Shown: positions 5,958 through 19,809 of the stretch, in pieces | Layout of the letters: the number at the start of each line of letters is the position of its first letter | Position numbering within the stretch: the stretch's first letter is position 1 | IMG/VR virus record: IMGVR_UViG_3300029319_000449 | Location: 1 to 25,560 of that record | DNA length: 25,560 nt | Strand: one strand, 5' to 3' | Source: a virus | Position numbers and translations under genes: made by a program | The notes under the pieces: generated by a model | Database searches by the model: none | Told to the model about the DNA's origin: nothing | Seen by the model: only the letters and a program-made list of their open reading frames with translations

Positions 5958-8594
5958 TCACCGCGATGCAAGACGGCCATTGAGGCCATAGCGTTGTTGG
6001 AGCGCCCTGCTCGTTTCAGAGCCGGGCGATGCGATCTTGCGGGCCACGATTTGGTCCAGCGTGACATCAAGCGATTGTGCGCTGCCGTCCTGCACCTTCG
6101 CCTGGGCAACTTCCTTGCCGCTGTCATCCACAAAACGAACAGTGAGGACGCTTCCGCTCCCCGCGCCGTTGCCGTTGGCCGCCACGCCGAGCCGCCCGTC
6201 TGGCCCGCGCCTCAAAGGCATGATCGCCTCCGGCCCGGCCTCACCCATCAGACCGATACCGTTGGCGAATGGGAAAAACGTGGGACTGGAAACAACTTGT
6301 CCAGAATAAGCGGACAGTCCGGGGCTATTGTACACATTTCCAAATGCGTTTGGCACGAACAGACCAGAAAGAAACCCTCCGATTCCGCCCGACGTGCCGC
6401 CGCCGAACAGCGCCGTAAAGGCTTGGTTGATCAGAAGCTGGCCCAGCGAACTGATAAGGTCTCGGATCGCATCTCCCGCACTCTTGGACCCGTTGATGAT
6501 CCCGGTGAACATGTTCGAGAAACCAGACGCGAGAGTATCGTTGATAGACTGTGCAAGCTCTTGCTGCTGTTGCAACATGCGGGACCGTTCTTCGGCCACG
6601 GCATAGGCGTCCGCCAGGGCATTGATTTCCCCGATCAACTCGTCGGTCACCGGAATACCGGCTTCCTGCGCGCCTTTGAGCAGGTCCATCGCCGTGTTGA
6701 AACGCGCAGCGGCTGTCTCTGACAGGCCGAAAGCCTGTTGCTGGCGCTCCAATGCCTCGATGTTGTCACGAACCGCCTGTGTGGCTTGCTCGTAGGCGTT
6801 AAGCTGGGCCTCTGCCCCGCCGCCTCCTCCAAGCGCCCCCAGACTTCCACCAACGCCGGGAACCCGGGGTGTAACGGACGATGACCCGCCGCGACCTCCA
6901 CGTTGGCCCGGTGATCCCGGCACATTCGGTTCGGGCGTGCCGTTCATCGCCAGATCCCAATAGTGGGCCGAATATCCGAACTCACGCTCTGCGGATGCGC
7001 GGGCGCGATCGGCCTCACTCAGCTGCAGATTGCCCGGTGATGCGATCGCCCCATAGGTCTCTGGAGCCCGGCCGGTGATGGCCGACATCATGTTCTCAAA
7101 GCCAACGAGTATATTGCCCCAAGCCGTGCGGAAAGCTGCCTCAACACTATAGGCAACACCGCGCAGGGCCCGATCCATTGCCGTCGCGCCGTTCTTGATG
7201 CTCTCGATGGCGCGGTTCGCTGTGCGTCCCGCCGCCTGCATGGCACTGCCGAATCCGCCGGCGCGGTCGATGGCCTCCCAAAGCTGATAGACCAGTTCGC
7301 CGAGAACCACGACAAGGGCGCCTAGCCCGGTTCGGATCAACGCTGCACGGGTTGCGACCAGTGCTGACACAAAGCCCCAGGTGGCAGCCGCAGCCGCTGC
7401 GATCGCACCACGGAAGGCAATGGCCCCAGCTACCGCGGCAACGCCTAGATATGAGACAAGGCGCTCCATATTGGCGGCCAGAATGTCCGCTGCTCCGGCC
7501 AGCAGTTCCAAAGCCGGAACCATGACGGACAGCAACACTTGCCCAGCGCCCAAGGCATGATCGCCAAAGCGGGCCATGACGACATTGAGGCGCTGATCGA
7601 GCGATTCCGAAACCCGGTTGAACGCTTCGTCCGCCGCCCCTGCCCGTTCCTCCATATCACCGAGGATGTCGTTGAACTTCTCGCCGCCCTGTCCCGCAAG
7701 CGAGAATACCGCCCGCAGGGCCTCGGTCGATCCGAACAGCATGGCAAGCGCTTCCTGGCTGCCCCCGGTCGCCTCGACCAGATATTCCATGAACCCGGCA
7801 AGGCCCATGGTCTGTGCCGCCGTGGCGCTGAACTCGATGCCAAGCTCTTTGGCCAGATCGACGGCCTGAGAGGAAGGCTTGAGCAACTGCGTCATGATGC
7901 CCGAAAGGCCCGTGACGGCCATCTCGGTCGACTGCCCCTGTGTGGTCAGCGCGGCCGTAGCGGCGACGATCTCATCAAAGCTCAGACCCACAGCCGTGGC
8001 CTGGGGGATAACCCGGCCCAGCGTGCTCGCCAGCTCGTCAATCGTGGTCTTGCCTGCCCTCATGCCGACGAACAGCGTATCGGCCGCGTCCGAAGCCGTG
8101 AGGCCACTGGCGGCATAGGCATTCGTTGCCGTGGTCAGGATATCGACCGCAACCGTGACCTGAGTGATGCCACCAATGGCGGTGCGGTTCGCGACCTCAA
8201 GCAATTCCGTTGCCTGTGCCGCATCCCCTGCCCCGGCAGAGATGGCCTGATAGAAGGCTTGAGCCTGTGACGCCGCCGTGGTGCCAAACTCTCGAGACAT
8301 GCGCCGCGAGGCTTCCGCGATGGCGTCGATCTCGCCTTCCACCACGGGGAGGAGCGTCGAGACTTCGGCCAATGCGGCATCGAACGCACGAGCCTCGCGG
8401 ATCATGGTGTTGAACGAGAACGTGACGGCGGCCAAAGCCGCGAACTGTGCCGCCATCCGACCGATGGTTTTGGCCACGCGGTCAGCGGTGCGATCCGTGC
8501 GGACGGCCTGACGCTCAAAGTCGTCAAGCCTTTTGCCCGCAACAGGAACGCTGTCGCTGCGAATTTCGAGCCCTAGTACCGCGAGATCGGCCAT
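5958..8594 (-). CDS. Phage tail tape measure protein (TP901-type core), 878 aa
   Basis: The protein sets tail length and is thought to leave the tail before DNA ejection. The N-terminal half holds the TP901/PhageMin_Tail core: DILTTATNAYAASGLTA, GMRAGKTTIDELASTLGRV and LSFDEIVAATAALTTQG. Around the middle are Ala-rich hydrophobic helices (AVAGAIAFRGAIAAAAAAT and a second GLGALVVVLGEL) that could span a membrane. A Gly/Pro/Ser-rich linker follows, then helical sequence, and the C-terminus has GEAGPEAIMPL, a very common tape-measure ending. At about 1.5 Å per residue the expected tail length is near 130 nm. The start follows the chaperone T stop by seven bases. Confidence 0.93.
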   Translation of the reverse strand: MADLAVLGLEIRSDSVPVAGKRLDDFERQAVRTDRTADRVAKTIGRMAAQFAALAAVTFSFNTMIREARAFDAALAEVSTLLPVVEGEIDAIAEASRRMSREFGTTAASQAQAFYQAISAGAGDAAQATELLEVANRTAIGGITQVTVAVDILTTATNAYAASGLTASDAADTLFVGMRAGKTTIDELASTLGRVIPQATAVGLSFDEIVAATAALTTQGQSTEMAVTGLSGIMTQLLKPSSQAVDLAKELGIEFSATAAQTMGLAGFMEYLVEATGGSQEALAMLFGSTEALRAVFSLAGQGGEKFNDILGDMEERAGAADEAFNRVSESLDQRLNVVMARFGDHALGAGQVLLSVMVPALELLAGAADILAANMERLVSYLGVAAVAGAIAFRGAIAAAAAATWGFVSALVATRAALIRTGLGALVVVLGELVYQLWEAIDRAGGFGSAMQAAGRTANRAIESIKNGATAMDRALRGVAYSVEAAFRTAWGNILVGFENMMSAITGRAPETYGAIASPGNLQLSEADRARASAEREFGYSAHYWDLAMNGTPEPNVPGSPGQRGGRGGSSSVTPRVPGVGGSLGALGGGGGAEAQLNAYEQATQAVRDNIEALERQQQAFGLSETAAARFNTAMDLLKGAQEAGIPVTDELIGEINALADAYAVAEERSRMLQQQQELAQSINDTLASGFSNMFTGIINGSKSAGDAIRDLISSLGQLLINQAFTALFGGGTSGGIGGFLSGLFVPNAFGNVYNSPGLSAYSGQVVSSPTFFPFANGIGLMGEAGPEAIMPLRRGPDGRLGVAANGNGAGSGSVLTVRFVDDSGKEVAQAKVQDGSAQSLDVTLDQIVARKIASPGSETSRALQQRYGLNGRLASR

Positions 8595-13977: not shown

Positions 13978-14952
13978 TTATGCCGGGACGTTGGTGATTT
14001 CGTCCGCATAGCCGACCGCGCCGGGCAAACGAATTTCCGTGCCGCCGGTACGGGCGATGATGCCGGTCTCAAAGCCCATGATGGACTTCTGACGCGGCTG
14101 CAGGACCGTGCGGGGCATGGGGAGGTGGAAGCGCAGGACTTCCGGGTCACGACGATAGGCGATCATGCGACCGCCACCGTCCTGAGATGCAGTGGCCAGC
14201 TCACGCAGCGGGGCAATATCCAAGGGCTGGTTGGTCTCAGCCGTATAGATGTTGTTGGCCCGCAGGAGCGCGAGGATGGTCATGGCGCCGTCGCCCGAAC
14301 CGATACGCGTGCTGGAGATATAGCGGAACGCCGCGGGAGGCAGGCGCAGGGTGTCGGCCCATTCCACTTCCTCGGTGTTCTCGCGAATGCTGCCGAGCAG
14401 GTTATTCACGTCCCGGATGATCTGGTCCGGCGTTTTGGCCGGCCAGAACGTCACAGAACCCGTGCCGTCCGCAGCAACGTCAACGCGCGAAACGCTGGCG
14501 TTGTTGATGAGACCGGTCCAGCCCTTAGCAGTGGCGCCCACCATGGCGACAGAGTTGAGCAGGCGCTCAACCTTGTCGGCGGCCGACATGGCCTTGGTAT
14601 CGTTCAGGTTGATGCCGTAAAGGTTGGCCTGATTAATTTCCTCGAGGTTCCACTCCCAGCCCGAACCGATCATCGCGAAGTCGTGCGATGCCTGATCACG
14701 GGTGACCTGGTTGAAGGGCATGTCGGTGCCAGCGCCGGAGAGGAACTTGGCCTCACCTGCAGCATCGACGGTGAAGAAGGTCGTTCCGATCGCCCAGGGC
14801 TGTCCCTCGGTCACAACAGGGACGTGGGCCCCATAGTTGAACGTCGGATAGCGCCGCTGGTAGATGCGGGTCTCGATAGTGCGCCCCTGCGCGATCACGA
14901 AGGGGAGAGCAGCCTGCGCGTCAGCGAAGGGCTGCTGGATCATCTGGTTCAT
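13978..14952 (-). CDS. Major capsid protein (DUF2184-type), 324 aa
   Basis: The protein begins MNQMIQQPFADAQAALPFV and shows segments typical of DUF2184 major capsid proteins: RRYPTFNYGAHVPV, WNLEEINQANLYGINL and GWTGLINNASVSRVDV. The C-terminal half has the HK97-type end (RMIAYRRDPEVLRFHLPMP, then TGGTEIRLPGAVGYADEI). It has no obvious propeptide, which agrees with a separate scaffold supplied by the DUF2213 gene. The ATG has an AAAGGA ribosome site. It lies between the cement protein and the small accessory head protein. Confidence 0.9.
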   Translation of the reverse strand: MNQMIQQPFADAQAALPFVIAQGRTIETRIYQRRYPTFNYGAHVPVVTEGQPWAIGTTFFTVDAAGEAKFLSGAGTDMPFNQVTRDQASHDFAMIGSGWEWNLEEINQANLYGINLNDTKAMSAADKVERLLNSVAMVGATAKGWTGLINNASVSRVDVAADGTGSVTFWPAKTPDQIIRDVNNLLGSIRENTEEVEWADTLRLPPAAFRYISSTRIGSGDGAMTILALLRANNIYTAETNQPLDIAPLRELATASQDGGGRMIAYRRDPEVLRFHLPMPRTVLQPRQKSIMGFETGIIARTGGTEIRLPGAVGYADEITNVPA

Positions 14953-15461: not shown

Positions 15462-16628
15462 TTAATTCGCCACGGCGGGACGATGCGCGGACTGCAAGTC
15501 CTCGATCATCTTCGCGCGGGCATCGGTTACGGTCGTGTCGCCGTCACCGGTCGGGGTAATCCCGTCCTTGACGGCATTGGCGAAAGGGTCGGCGGACTTC
15601 ACGTCCTTGGCGATGGCCTTAAACATACCGGCGATCATGTCGTCGGAAGCGTCCTTGACCATTTCGTCACCAAGCTTGGCAGCAACGGCGGCCTTGCGCA
15701 GGTCGGCGTCAGACTTGCCCTTGGGGTCGATCTTGGCGTCGATGGCCTTGACCACGGTTACGAGCGCAGCGCGGTCGGCAACCATATTGTCGAGATCTTC
15801 GGGTTTCGGCGCCGAGTCCTGGGCCTTCTTGAGGTCGGCTTTCAGGGTGCCGATTTCCTCATCTTTGGCCTTGATGACAGCATCCTTGTCGGCAATCGCC
15901 GTCTGATGTGCCGTTGCGGTTTCGGTGGCCTTTGTGGCCGCATCAGCGATCTGCTTCTGCAGCTTGTCGATGGCTTGGGCGCCCTGATCGGTGGTCTGCA
16001 CCGACAAGCCGTCCACGACCACGGTACGAAGTGCATCACTCACGGTGATTGTCTCCTTGGTGGGTGAAGGGATCGGGGCAGCGCCCCAGGAATTCGCACC
16101 GTCACCGATGCGAAGCTCGTGCCCGCCGCGTGCCTGATCGACAATCGCGACGTGGTTCATCTTGAAATCGCCCATGATGGCGTCGTAGGGCTCTCCAGAG
16201 GGCGTCACACCGTCCTCAAAGCGCAGCTTGGCGGCATAGCCCATGGATAGCTCGCGAGTGCCGTCTTCGACCTCCTGAATGGCCTTGGCATCACGCAGGA
16301 GAAGCGGCACGCGGACGAACTCGCCATCGCGCAGCACGTCCTCGCCTGCCTCGCCAACAGCCAAGTCTTTCCAGTTGTCCGGGCTTACGCCTCCTTTGGG
16401 GTGCCCCATGGTGATCGGCACGCCGGCATAGGAGGCTATGGCGTCCTTCTTGAACACCTCTTGCTCGGGCCGATAGACGCGGATGATCTGCTTGTCTGTG
16501 ATGCCGATCTCGGAGCCGAGGTAAAGCTGCACATTACCGGCCTTGGCCACCCGAGCGGACACAACAGCGCCCTGCCCGGTCCGGCGCAGTGAAGCGCCGT
16601 CCAGGATCATCGTATCGGTGAATTGCAT
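15462..16628 (-). CDS. DUF2213 head maturation protease with C-terminal scaffold-like region (388 aa)
   Basis: The N-terminal part (about residues 1-180) is the DUF2213 domain: YRPEQEVFKKDAIASYAGVP, GHPKGGVSPDNWKDL, ELSMGYAAKL and KMNHVAIVDQARGGHE. The last segment resembles the conserved NHVAxV strand of prohead proteases. From about residue 205 to 295 the protein is Ala/Lys/Asp/Glu-rich with long helices (TDQGAQAIDKLQKQIADAAT, IKAKDEEIGTLKADLKKAQD), a probable coiled coil that would serve as an internal scaffold. The gene begins three bases after the portal stop. The protease activity is family knowledge; the scaffold role is inferred from composition. Confidence 0.84.
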   Translation of the reverse strand: MQFTDTMILDGASLRRTGQGAVVSARVAKAGNVQLYLGSEIGITDKQIIRVYRPEQEVFKKDAIASYAGVPITMGHPKGGVSPDNWKDLAVGEAGEDVLRDGEFVRVPLLLRDAKAIQEVEDGTRELSMGYAAKLRFEDGVTPSGEPYDAIMGDFKMNHVAIVDQARGGHELRIGDGANSWGAAPIPSPTKETITVSDALRTVVVDGLSVQTTDQGAQAIDKLQKQIADAATKATETATAHQTAIADKDAVIKAKDEEIGTLKADLKKAQDSAPKPEDLDNMVADRAALVTVVKAIDAKIDPKGKSDADLRKAAVAAKLGDEMVKDASDDMIAGMFKAIAKDVKSADPFANAVKDGITPTGDGDTTVTDARAKMIEDLQSAHRPAVAN

Positions 16629-16630
16629 GA

Positions 16631-18463
16631 TCAGTCCTCCCGGACCTCTTCAAAGATTTCGGGACCAAGGATGATACGGCCCCGATAGGGCTCGACCTTG
16701 TCTAGATCGACATTGCCGCCCACCTGAATGGAGATATGCGGCTGATAGTCCGGCCAATCCCACGAGGCACCGGATTCCACGATCTGCTCATGGCGCCACA
16801 CAAGCTCCCATGCCGTCATCAGCAGGGCCTTGTAATCACCAGTGGGGCCCAGCGCTTCCATCTGGCGCGGCCCGCCTGCGGGTATCTCCAGCCGGTCGGC
16901 GTAGGACGTGCCCACAGTGAACCAATCAACAGGCGTTGTGCTGTAGGCGATGGTGACATGCAGATCGGGAACGATGTCCGTGAAGCCCTGCGACTTCGCC
17001 CAACGGATGATCTCGGCTTTGTTGATCACATCCCGGCGCACATAGAGCGTGCGAGGACGGGCGTCATTCGCCTCCAGAGTTGCATCCGGATCAGCCGGTG
17101 GAGGCAGAGCGTTGGTTTCGTCGTCGCTATCGTCTTCCTCCTGCTCACCAAGCGTGCCATAGACCTTGATCGCGGCCTCTAGGCCGGAAAGCGACCCGTC
17201 CTCCACCAGTTCATTGACCAGGGCATCGGACAGCGCCTCGATGGGCATAAGAGCGGGAGACATGCCGCCTGTACCAGCGATGGTGCGGGCAGCGTCGGCC
17301 TTCATCTTGAAGGTTTCCGCCTTTTCCTTTTCGCTCAGGGTGTAGAGCGGTGCCCAGCGGGAATAGATCGCCTCATCACGCTTGCCGAGAGCCGACCGGA
17401 TGATCACCTCATCAAGCCGGTGCATGGCGGGCGTCAGTTCGGTGCGCTGCCGGGCCGTGATGTTGTCGTAATAGTTCTTGAGCGCGTGCTCCCCATTGTT
17501 GCCCAGCCCCGATGGGGCCTGCATCAACAGGCGGGTGACAGGCACGTCAGCGGCACCGGATGCGACCTGCAGAAATGATTGCATCAGGTCGGGAAGCTGG
17601 GCAAAGCTGATCTGCTTTTGCTCCCACTTCTCACCCTGGGCCGTGTCGCCGTTGGCCCCATTGCCTTCAAGCAGCACCATGTTGAACATTGACTTGATCG
17701 TGTTCGCATAAGTGAAACGATCGGTCAGTGCTGTTGTGGTCGCGCTGTTCTGCAGGATCTTGGACAGGCCCGGCACATATATGACGTCGGTCTTCGCCTC
17801 GGGGATCAATGCTGCGATGTGCTGTTGCACCGATGTGGCATTACGTACCGCGTCATAGACCGTTTGGAGGATCGAGTCCCCCCAGCCGCTCAAGTCCTGA
17901 TAGCGATCATCGAGTATCGGAGCGCCGATGAACCGCACGACGCGAGACGGATGGACCTTGACCGTGGAGCCATTTCTGCCCTGCACGGTGTAATATTCAG
18001 GCTCTCCGAAGAACTCGCTTGTGACGTCGCGACTGATCGGCCCCGGCGTGATCTCGTGACGATGCAACAGGTGCAGATAGGAAAGATCGCCCTGCTTCAC
18101 CCGATCGAGCATAAGCTCCTCCTCGGGGACGGCGTTCTTCATGCCGATATAGATGGCAGACCCGCCCAGCAGGCGGGCCTTCTGCAGCGCTAGTGTCACC
18201 TTTGGCTGGATATTGATTTCCGGCGCCTTCTCCACCTTCTCGATGAGGGTGATCTGGTCTTTTTCGGCCTGCCATTCGCGCCACTCGCGCGTCATGTCGT
18301 GGGGCACGATGTCCACGATTTTGCGGGCCAGCCAATCCGACCGGTGCATGGCGTTAAGCTCGGCATCGCTCAGCACGTTCATGACGAACGATTGGCTGAC
18401 GGATTTGTCCTTGGACGTTCCGAGGCCCGTAACCAGGCTTTTCAGGGTGTCCAAGATCATCAT
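16631..18463 (-). CDS. Portal protein (DUF1073/PF06381 type) fused to an Acb1-like 2H phosphoesterase domain, 610 aa
   Basis: Residues 1-430 form a DUF1073-type portal, with LARKIVDIVPHDMTREWREW near the start and LMQAPSGLGNNGEHALKNYY later. After an acidic linker (EEDDSDDETN) a second domain runs from about residue 469 to 610. It begins RPRTLYVRRDVINKAEII and carries two H-x-T/S motifs: H502-V-T504 and H576-I-S578. This is the layout of phage T4 Acb1, the anti-CBASS enzyme that cleaves cyclic oligonucleotide signals. The portal should form the dodecameric DNA entry ring; the added domain may degrade CBASS messengers. Both catalytic pairs appear intact. The start overlaps the terminase stop. 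Confidence 0.88.
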   Translation of the reverse strand: MMILDTLKSLVTGLGTSKDKSVSQSFVMNVLSDAELNAMHRSDWLARKIVDIVPHDMTREWREWQAEKDQITLIEKVEKAPEINIQPKVTLALQKARLLGGSAIYIGMKNAVPEEELMLDRVKQGDLSYLHLLHRHEITPGPISRDVTSEFFGEPEYYTVQGRNGSTVKVHPSRVVRFIGAPILDDRYQDLSGWGDSILQTVYDAVRNATSVQQHIAALIPEAKTDVIYVPGLSKILQNSATTTALTDRFTYANTIKSMFNMVLLEGNGANGDTAQGEKWEQKQISFAQLPDLMQSFLQVASGAADVPVTRLLMQAPSGLGNNGEHALKNYYDNITARQRTELTPAMHRLDEVIIRSALGKRDEAIYSRWAPLYTLSEKEKAETFKMKADAARTIAGTGGMSPALMPIEALSDALVNELVEDGSLSGLEAAIKVYGTLGEQEEDDSDDETNALPPPADPDATLEANDARPRTLYVRRDVINKAEIIRWAKSQGFTDIVPDLHVTIAYSTTPVDWFTVGTSYADRLEIPAGGPRQMEALGPTGDYKALLMTAWELVWRHEQIVESGASWDWPDYQPHISIQVGGNVDLDKVEPYRGRIILGPEIFEEVRED

Positions 18464-19809
18464 CAGGTCACAACTCCAAGCATTCCGTATTCAAAGGTTT
18501 CGCCAAGCATCAATTCAGTGAGCGCCCAGACCAGAGCGTCGGCCCTATCCGGGGAACCATCGCCCACGTATCCAGCCGTTGTGAAATTACAAAGCTGGTC
18601 CTCAAGGTCGGCAAAGTCCCCGATATGGTGGACCCTGCCTTGCTCATAGAGGGCGCTGATAGGCTCGGCGCGTACCGCCTTGCCCCTGCTTGCCACCACT
18701 TCCTTGAAAGCCGCGTTCTTGTCGGCAGTGGCCACGGTGAACCTCACCATGTCGCCGCCGTAGTTGCGTTCGCCCACGATACGGTTGGCGCCGAACCTGT
18801 GATAAAGATCAACGGCCCGCCTGCCCCACCCTTCCGGGCTCATCTGGCAAGTGCCGTCATGGATCACATAGCCCTGGCCATCGACGCCCAGACCCGCCAC
18901 AATGATGCCGATATCGTCGCCGGCACCATCGCCGCGCGTGCCGCTCGGATCGACCGAAACCACAATGCGCTGCATTTCCGGCATCTGATCATCAGAGATG
19001 CGCAGGCTGTCGAGACCGGGCATGTTCTTGCCATCGGGTGCCTTGCGGTCCTCAAGTGACCACAGCGCCCCATTGACCTCGCTGGCCCATTCTCCTGCCT
19101 CGAACCGCAACCGCTTGGCCGCAGACATCGAGGCGAGAACGTCGAAATATTCCTCTGGCAGATTGTCGGCGTTGTCGGACGGGTTGACCCGCATCTCGAC
19201 GTAGTCATCAGGCTTGGCCAGCGCCTCTTTTGTCCCCGGCTTCATCTTGGCCCGGAACATCTGGTAGGACCAATGGAGCTTGGACGGCGGATTGCAGTCG
19301 AAGTAAGCCTTGAGCGCCAGGTATTGCCTACCCGTCTGCTTGGCTATCTCCGCTGCCAGTGGCACCTTTTGCGCCAAGCGGGACATGGCCGTTTCGACCG
19401 ATGCCCATGGTATCTGGCTGCTCTCGTTGAAATAGAGCGTGGCGTATTCTTGCCCGAGGATCTTCTCGACCCGCTCCTTATCGTCCAGCCCGGCAATCCA
19501 TACCTGCGACCCGTTGGGCAACTCGACAAAGAAGTCGGTCTTATCGAACCGCACCCGAAGGCTCGGAAAGCACAGTTGCAATACTTTGGGCAGCGTGTCC
19601 GACCACACCGATGTCTTGGCGTGGTTGAACCGAAACCGGAATATGACATGGCGCGAGCCCGGCGCATTGATCGCCCGCTGGACAATCGCCCGGATGAGCA
19701 CAAAGGTCTTTCCCGACCGCGACCCGCCCCGCAACATGATATTGCGAGCGGGGCTGGCCAGGAGCCGGTTAGCCTCCCGTTGCTTCTCCGTGAGCTTTAC
19801 TGGTGCCAT
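18463..19809 (-). CDS. terL: Terminase large subunit (448 aa)
   Basis: This is the ATP-driven DNA packaging motor with a headful or site nuclease. Walker A is GGSRSGKT at residues 28-35, and Walker B with the catalytic Glu is TLYFNE at 124-129. The C-terminal RNase H-like nuclease begins around RIVVSVDPSGTRGDGAGDD (about residue 285), has a further GERNYGGDM segment, and ends with DRADALVWAL, which supplies the last acidic residues. It lies after the small terminase gene (3-base gap) and overlaps the portal start. All expected motifs are present, so it should be active. Confidence 0.95.
   Translation of the reverse strand: MAPVKLTEKQREANRLLASPARNIMLRGGSRSGKTFVLIRAIVQRAINAPGSRHVIFRFRFNHAKTSVWSDTLPKVLQLCFPSLRVRFDKTDFFVELPNGSQVWIAGLDDKERVEKILGQEYATLYFNESSQIPWASVETAMSRLAQKVPLAAEIAKQTGRQYLALKAYFDCNPPSKLHWSYQMFRAKMKPGTKEALAKPDDYVEMRVNPSDNADNLPEEYFDVLASMSAAKRLRFEAGEWASEVNGALWSLEDRKAPDGKNMPGLDSLRISDDQMPEMQRIVVSVDPSGTRGDGAGDDIGIIVAGLGVDGQGYVIHDGTCQMSPEGWGRRAVDLYHRFGANRIVGERNYGGDMVRFTVATADKNAAFKEVVASRGKAVRAEPISALYEQGRVHHIGDFADLEDQLCNFTTAGYVGDGSPDRADALVWALTELMLGETFEYGMLGVVT

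Follow-up and report, generated by a model that had tools for sequence, protein, structure and literature searches.

A phage portal protein with a C-terminal Acb1-family domain: a probable CBASS-messenger phosphodiesterase carried on the head assembly

Introduction

Why should a phage portal protein end in a domain resembling the anti-CBASS enzyme Acb1, is this domain an authentic part of the protein, and what could it be for? The question is raised by a single gene in a 25.6-kb virus record (25,560 nucleotides, hereafter the window), read in the first-pass annotation as a portal with a C-terminal Acb1-type 2H domain, the novelty of which was seen in a possible dual role. The idea of such a role is older than the name of the enzyme, as the proposal of 2017 predates the naming of Acb1. 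2H domains fused to portal and MuF proteins were described in 2017 with the suggestion that they are packaged and then injected to destroy nucleotides of the host defence (PMC5512222), and packaged, injected, nucleotide-destroying portal/MuF-2H fusions were proposed again in 2022 (PMC9503650). Thus the architecture and the intact catalytic tetrad of the initial reading stand, whereas the priority of the dual role belongs to these publications. Literature search yielded no study in which DUF1073 and Acb1 are linked by name, and the novelty of the portal-Acb1 finding as such is modest. Less attention seems to have been paid to the clustering of Acb1 fusions at the portal-protease junction, in view of a report (Richmond-Buccola 2024, cited in PMC12409349) that the prohead protease is sensed by CBASS.

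Gene and domain organization

The open reading frame is a real gene, and its strand, missing from the first-pass annotation, is minus (18463-16631); the plus-strand reading of 16631-18463 was rejected, containing stops throughout and no gene. The features of the protein and of the neighboring genes are the following.

16631..18463, minus strand: portal-Acb1 fusion protein, 610 aa plus stop
17288..18361, minus strand: Phage_portal_3 (PF06381), residues 35-392 (Pfam E 8.9e-100; best fold match 8hds)
17054..17158, minus strand: acidic low-confidence linker, residues 436-470 (sequence and predicted model)
16634..17053, minus strand: Acb1 (PF23474) 2H phosphoesterase domain, residues 471-610 (Pfam E 2.4e-30; Z 16.2 to 7T26)
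17042..17044, minus strand: Tyr474, equivalent to Y12 of T4 Acb1, base stacking (alignment; role from PMC9117128)
16952..16960, minus strand: first HxT motif, H502-V-T504, equivalent to T4 H44/T46 (alignment)
16730..16738, minus strand: second HxT/S motif, H576-I-S578, equivalent to T4 H113/T115 (alignment)
18463..19809, minus strand: terminase large subunit, preceding gene (Pfam and PHROG profiles)
15462..16628, minus strand: DUF2213 head maturation protease, next gene (PF09979 E 8e-50; PHROG_530)
13978..14952, minus strand: major capsid protein, same head operon as portal (PF09950 E 2e-70)

According to Pfam and PHROG profiles, the genes around the portal follow in the order small terminase, large terminase, portal, DUF2213 protease, cement and major capsid protein, and the PF06381 portal sits in the expected terL-portal-protease-cement-capsid operon of the window. 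The portal family PHROG_146 is aligned over residues 3-606 of the fusion, implying that many members of this family share the C-terminal domain. Origin of the fusion as an assembly artefact was rejected, the identical gene being present on a second contig (L001), and is further ruled out by more than 260 portal-fused copies (counted without deduplication) among loci from phages, viral contigs and prophages.

The two parts of the protein are recognised by separate profiles, PF06381 over residues 35-392 (E 8.9e-100) and PF23474 over residues 471-610 (E 2.4e-30), in full agreement with the portal plus C-terminal Acb1 domain initially described. The second match extends over positions 1-140 of the 144 in the profile and scores 105.6 bits against a curated cut-off of 27. 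The name Acb1 for this domain is that of Pfam itself. Structure prediction for the domain alone, built from 19 phage sequences, gave a model with pLDDT 89.7, for which the nearest solved structure is Acb1 of phage FBB1 (7T26; Foldseek E 2e-7). Their superposition extends over 130 residues with Z 16.2 and rmsd 2.1 Å; second to Acb1 in the fold comparison is E. coli LigT (Z about 10.8). Profile score and predicted fold together reject a chance match of motifs, and the outcome which would have spoken against the first-pass annotation, a fold other than that of a 2H phosphoesterase, is not what was found. Assignment of residues 471-610 to the Acb1 family is strong. For the portal part the best fold match is the Pam3 portal (8HDS, Z 28.2), which ranks first for the full-length model as well. 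The linker between them (residues 436-470) is acidic, as had been noticed, with 12 D/E versus 1 K/R, and in the full-length predicted model residues 438-468 have pLDDT mostly below 50.

Production of free Acb1 from an internal start was considered and rejected, since no in-frame ATG, GTG or TTG was found at residues 426-474 of the fusion; the earliest in-frame starts of the Acb1 part, both GTG, belong to residues 475 and 479, within the first strand of the domain. Judged from the reading frame, the full domain is unlikely to be made as a separate product. At the distal end of the gene, the likely ribosome site of the DUF2213 protease gene, GGGAGGA, lies inside the last Acb1 codons (window 16631-16650), at the position where other Acb1 copies run on to the lid Trp.

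Active site and nucleotide contacts

The residues singled out initially, H502/T504 and H576/S578, align with H44, T46, H113 and T115, the catalytic residues of T4 Acb1, in which the nucleotide is contacted by Y12, W74, F107, W147 and E141 (PMC9117128). The geometry of the two catalytic pairs in the model would follow from the superposition on 7T26. As for the contacts, the window copy has Tyr474 in place of Y12, Trp at F107 and Glu at E141, while the residue at W74 is not Trp and the protein stops short of the lid Trp W147. These contacts are not family-wide, as W74 occurs in 3 and W147 in 6 of the nine stand-alone Acb1 sequences; the lid residue is present in 92 of 127 non-redundant fused domains. 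Devoid of both W147 and W74, the window copy may differ in its affinity or substrate range.

In the same 127 domains, H44, T46 and T/S115 are found without exception, H113 in 126 and Y12 in 125, the replacement of Thr by Ser in the second motif (HxS, as in the window) being shared by 25. The single tetrad exception, with the second His changed to Asn (KPNVT), belongs to a NUDIX, Acb1 and XkdF-protease protein (L252:3314-6475 and L261:814-3432); this Acb1 copy, placed beside a second nucleotide enzyme, is probably dead. Preservation of the tetrad after transfer to many partners argues for selected catalysis.

Presence, exchange and fusion partners of the Acb1 domain

Among the ten nearest portals (60-74% identity, counting the window twin L001), four have no Acb1 and end in the linker, namely L006, L007, L009 and L352, with identities of 60-71%. 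Stand-alone Acb1 was not found within the records of three portal-only relatives, all of them fragments. In Acb1-less L006, a DUF4160 gene (6422-6784, opposite strand) is located between portal and protease. Similarity to the window is distributed unequally over the two parts of the fusion: L002, L003 and L010 are 73-74% identical in the portal part and 59-61% in Acb1, and L102, L178 and their kin are 47-49% identical in the portal part and 76-82% in Acb1. Common history of the portal and Acb1 trees was rejected both ways by the AU test (p 2.3e-6 and 6.4e-5), these p-values being somewhat optimistic because the groups were picked after the identities were known. On the strength of such alignments and trees, the Acb1 domain is a swappable module, this detail being new here.

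C-terminal Acb1 is borne by portals of the families PF06381, PF06074 (Mu) and PF04860 (HK97), and N-terminal Acb1 by head proteases of the families DUF2213, Peptidase_S78 and XkdF. Partner changes on the Acb1 tree of 92 domains number 17, the least possible being 10; for the HK97-portal label at least three changes are forced by well-supported branches, which could represent one gain and two losses in a tree with many weak inner branches. The stand-alone enzymes of T4 type form a separate, distant branch. In L266, L267, L283 and L327 a MuF domain follows Acb1. Fusions with ADP-ribosyltransferases comprise L274:2282-5563, with ADPrib_exo_Tox after portal-Acb1, and L276:3251-4657, with ART-PolyVal after Acb1, and in L239:3827-4888 Acb1 shares one open frame with a Gp49-like toxin domain (PHROG_3445). 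Very long open frames of 839-2361 aa with Acb1, in which Pfam recognises no head-protein domain, occur in L271, L286, L303 and L329, some of their length possibly being read-through of an adjacent open frame.

Some labels in this family are misleading. Two proteins of about 150-200 aa called ‘prohead protease’, from Roseobacter phage DSS3P8 (L088:3989-4441) and Edwardsiella phage ZHS (L089:2116-2715), were rejected as protease fusions, being stand-alone Acb1; true protease fusions exist in other loci. T4-type gp57B is labelled ‘RNA ligase’. In random class-wide genome searches PF23474 was above the cut-off solely in genomes used as the search start, which gives no frequency. At the level of sequence, portal-Acb1 fusion is common and ordinary for portals of such kind.

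Possible function and alternative explanations

The reading that we prefer, and consider probable, is that of a portal with a flexibly linked Acb1 2H phosphodiesterase hydrolysing CBASS messengers and carried on the head assembly. The portal, dodecameric in solved relatives, would bear at its C-terminus an enzyme that probably cuts cyclic di- and tri-nucleotides, the products of CBASS-type cyclases, at their 3'-5' bond, owing to which the cell would not abort the infection. Being one polypeptide with the portal expressed from the head operon, the enzyme would be placed on head-assembly complexes and, as portal C-termini point to the head interior, probably within the head, and could act in the producing cell (as tethered or excess free portal) or after delivery to the next one. 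Catalysis, substrate and virion place of the domain, as well as its action in the producing or in the next cell, are what we infer. As regards hosts, a PF18144 cyclase gene scores above the cut-off in 13 of the 50 fused-Acb1 genomes versus 40 of 493 genomes of the two matching orders (Fisher p 4e-4); this comparison is uncorrected for genome size, completeness and kinship, the window as a virus record contributes no host to it, and the link is suggestive only. An active fused domain would make counter-defence an integral feature of an essential assembly part, produced whenever heads are. Presence or absence of the domain in close relatives along with domain swapping supplies natural test pairs.

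Tentatively, the enzyme may instead be an injected effector, packaged on the inner face of the portal, freed by the head protease, ejected with DNA and protecting the phage from the first minutes. This is the polyvalent-protein or MuF-effector hypothesis published for portal/MuF-2H fusions (PMC5512222, PMC9503650), and the Acb1 domain is indeed fused to a head protein, its C-terminal slot is shared with enzymes of polyvalent type (InPase, the ADP-ribosyltransferases of L274 and L276, and MuF in the four loci listed above) and the protease gene adjoins that of portal-Acb1. The Acb1 end is also missing from the virion model of Pam3, where 442 of the 621 portal residues are modelled and the aligned part stops before Acb1, and residues 529-765 of the Pa193 portal, related to the Pbunavirus type, are without cryo-EM density (PMC11042391). 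For Pam3 we rely on the modelled length of 442 out of 621 and not on the mere absence of 8hds from the Foldseek list for the domain alone. The missing ends of both portals fit a loose tether or removal alike, so that a floppy tether explains the absent density too, and 12 portal copies per head amount to a low dose. Besides, portals ordinarily remain attached to the capsid, so that injection would have to be preceded by release. As an alternative to injection, a role during assembly, with the domain co-expressed or tethered, is equally plausible.

Such tethering could have a particular meaning if head-assembly proteins are what triggers CBASS, in which case the enzyme on portal or protease would destroy the messenger where it arises, within the producing cell. 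We hold this, too, only tentatively. In its favor, sensing of the prohead protease by CBASS has been reported (Richmond-Buccola 2024, cited in PMC12409349), phages can evade CBASS through mutations of the capsid (PMC10419184), Acb1 resides on the portal beside the protease gene or, in three protease families, on the protease itself, and the lack of in-frame starts at 426-474 makes separate translation of the whole domain unlikely. Yet gene order alone would also yield fusions of neighbors, and T4 Acb1 functions as a free protein. Greater doubt attaches to the generalization that tailed phages repeatedly attach Acb1 to the CBASS-triggering head proteins, portal and prohead protease, thereby making and holding the inhibitor at the alarm and not free or injected. 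Protease fusions pose a clean question, whether the enzyme must adjoin the CBASS trigger.

It is improbable that the domain is a 2H enzyme of RNA-end or 2'-5' RNA processing (LigT/Usb1-like) with no role in cyclic messenger turnover. Fold and tetrad are common to 2H enzymes, the PHROGs label for the family of this domain is ‘RNA ligase’ and an RNase is among the options given in PMC5512222; however, the fold is nearer to Acb1 than to LigT (Z 16.2 and 10.8), equivalents of Tyr12 and E141 are retained, and no RNA ligase gene was identified among the window genes scanned. Hardly credible is a dead structural appendage helping head assembly only, for which the loss of the second His in one fused copy (L252/L261, KPNVT) might speak, as the other 126 copies all keep the tetrad and the portal genes of near relatives are intact without the domain.

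Comparison with known systems

The portal-linked messenger phosphodiesterase preferred here shares with T4 gp57B and Acb1 of Erwinia phage FBB1 (7T26, 7T27; PF23474) the 2H fold, the HxT...HxT/S tetrad, Tyr12, Glu141 and an aromatic residue at F107 (Trp in the window), and differs from them in being fused to a portal, in the HxS form of the second motif, and in the absence of W74 and the lid Trp147. The portal of Pseudanabaena phage Pam3 (8HDS, 621 aa) resembles the window protein in the two-part architecture along the full length (E 1.5e-118; portal Z 28.2), but is only about 37% identical to it by structural alignment and has its own end with a lid-type GDWR sequence, its Acb1 region being present in the sequence and absent from the deposited structure. 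Portal/MuF-2H fusions described earlier have the architecture and the proposed function of the window protein, whereas in the parts of those papers considered Acb1 is unnamed, and domain swapping and 2H-protease fusions are not mentioned (PMC5512222, PMC9503650). Finally, portals of Pbunavirus type (Pseudomonas phage PAO1_Ab27; L263:1808-4105) and that of Luteibacter phage Pluto (L264:1766-4207) likewise combine a PF06381 portal with a C-terminal enzyme, which in their case is the inorganic pyrophosphatase InPase (PF18823) in place of Acb1, implying that the C-terminal place of the portal holds several enzymes.
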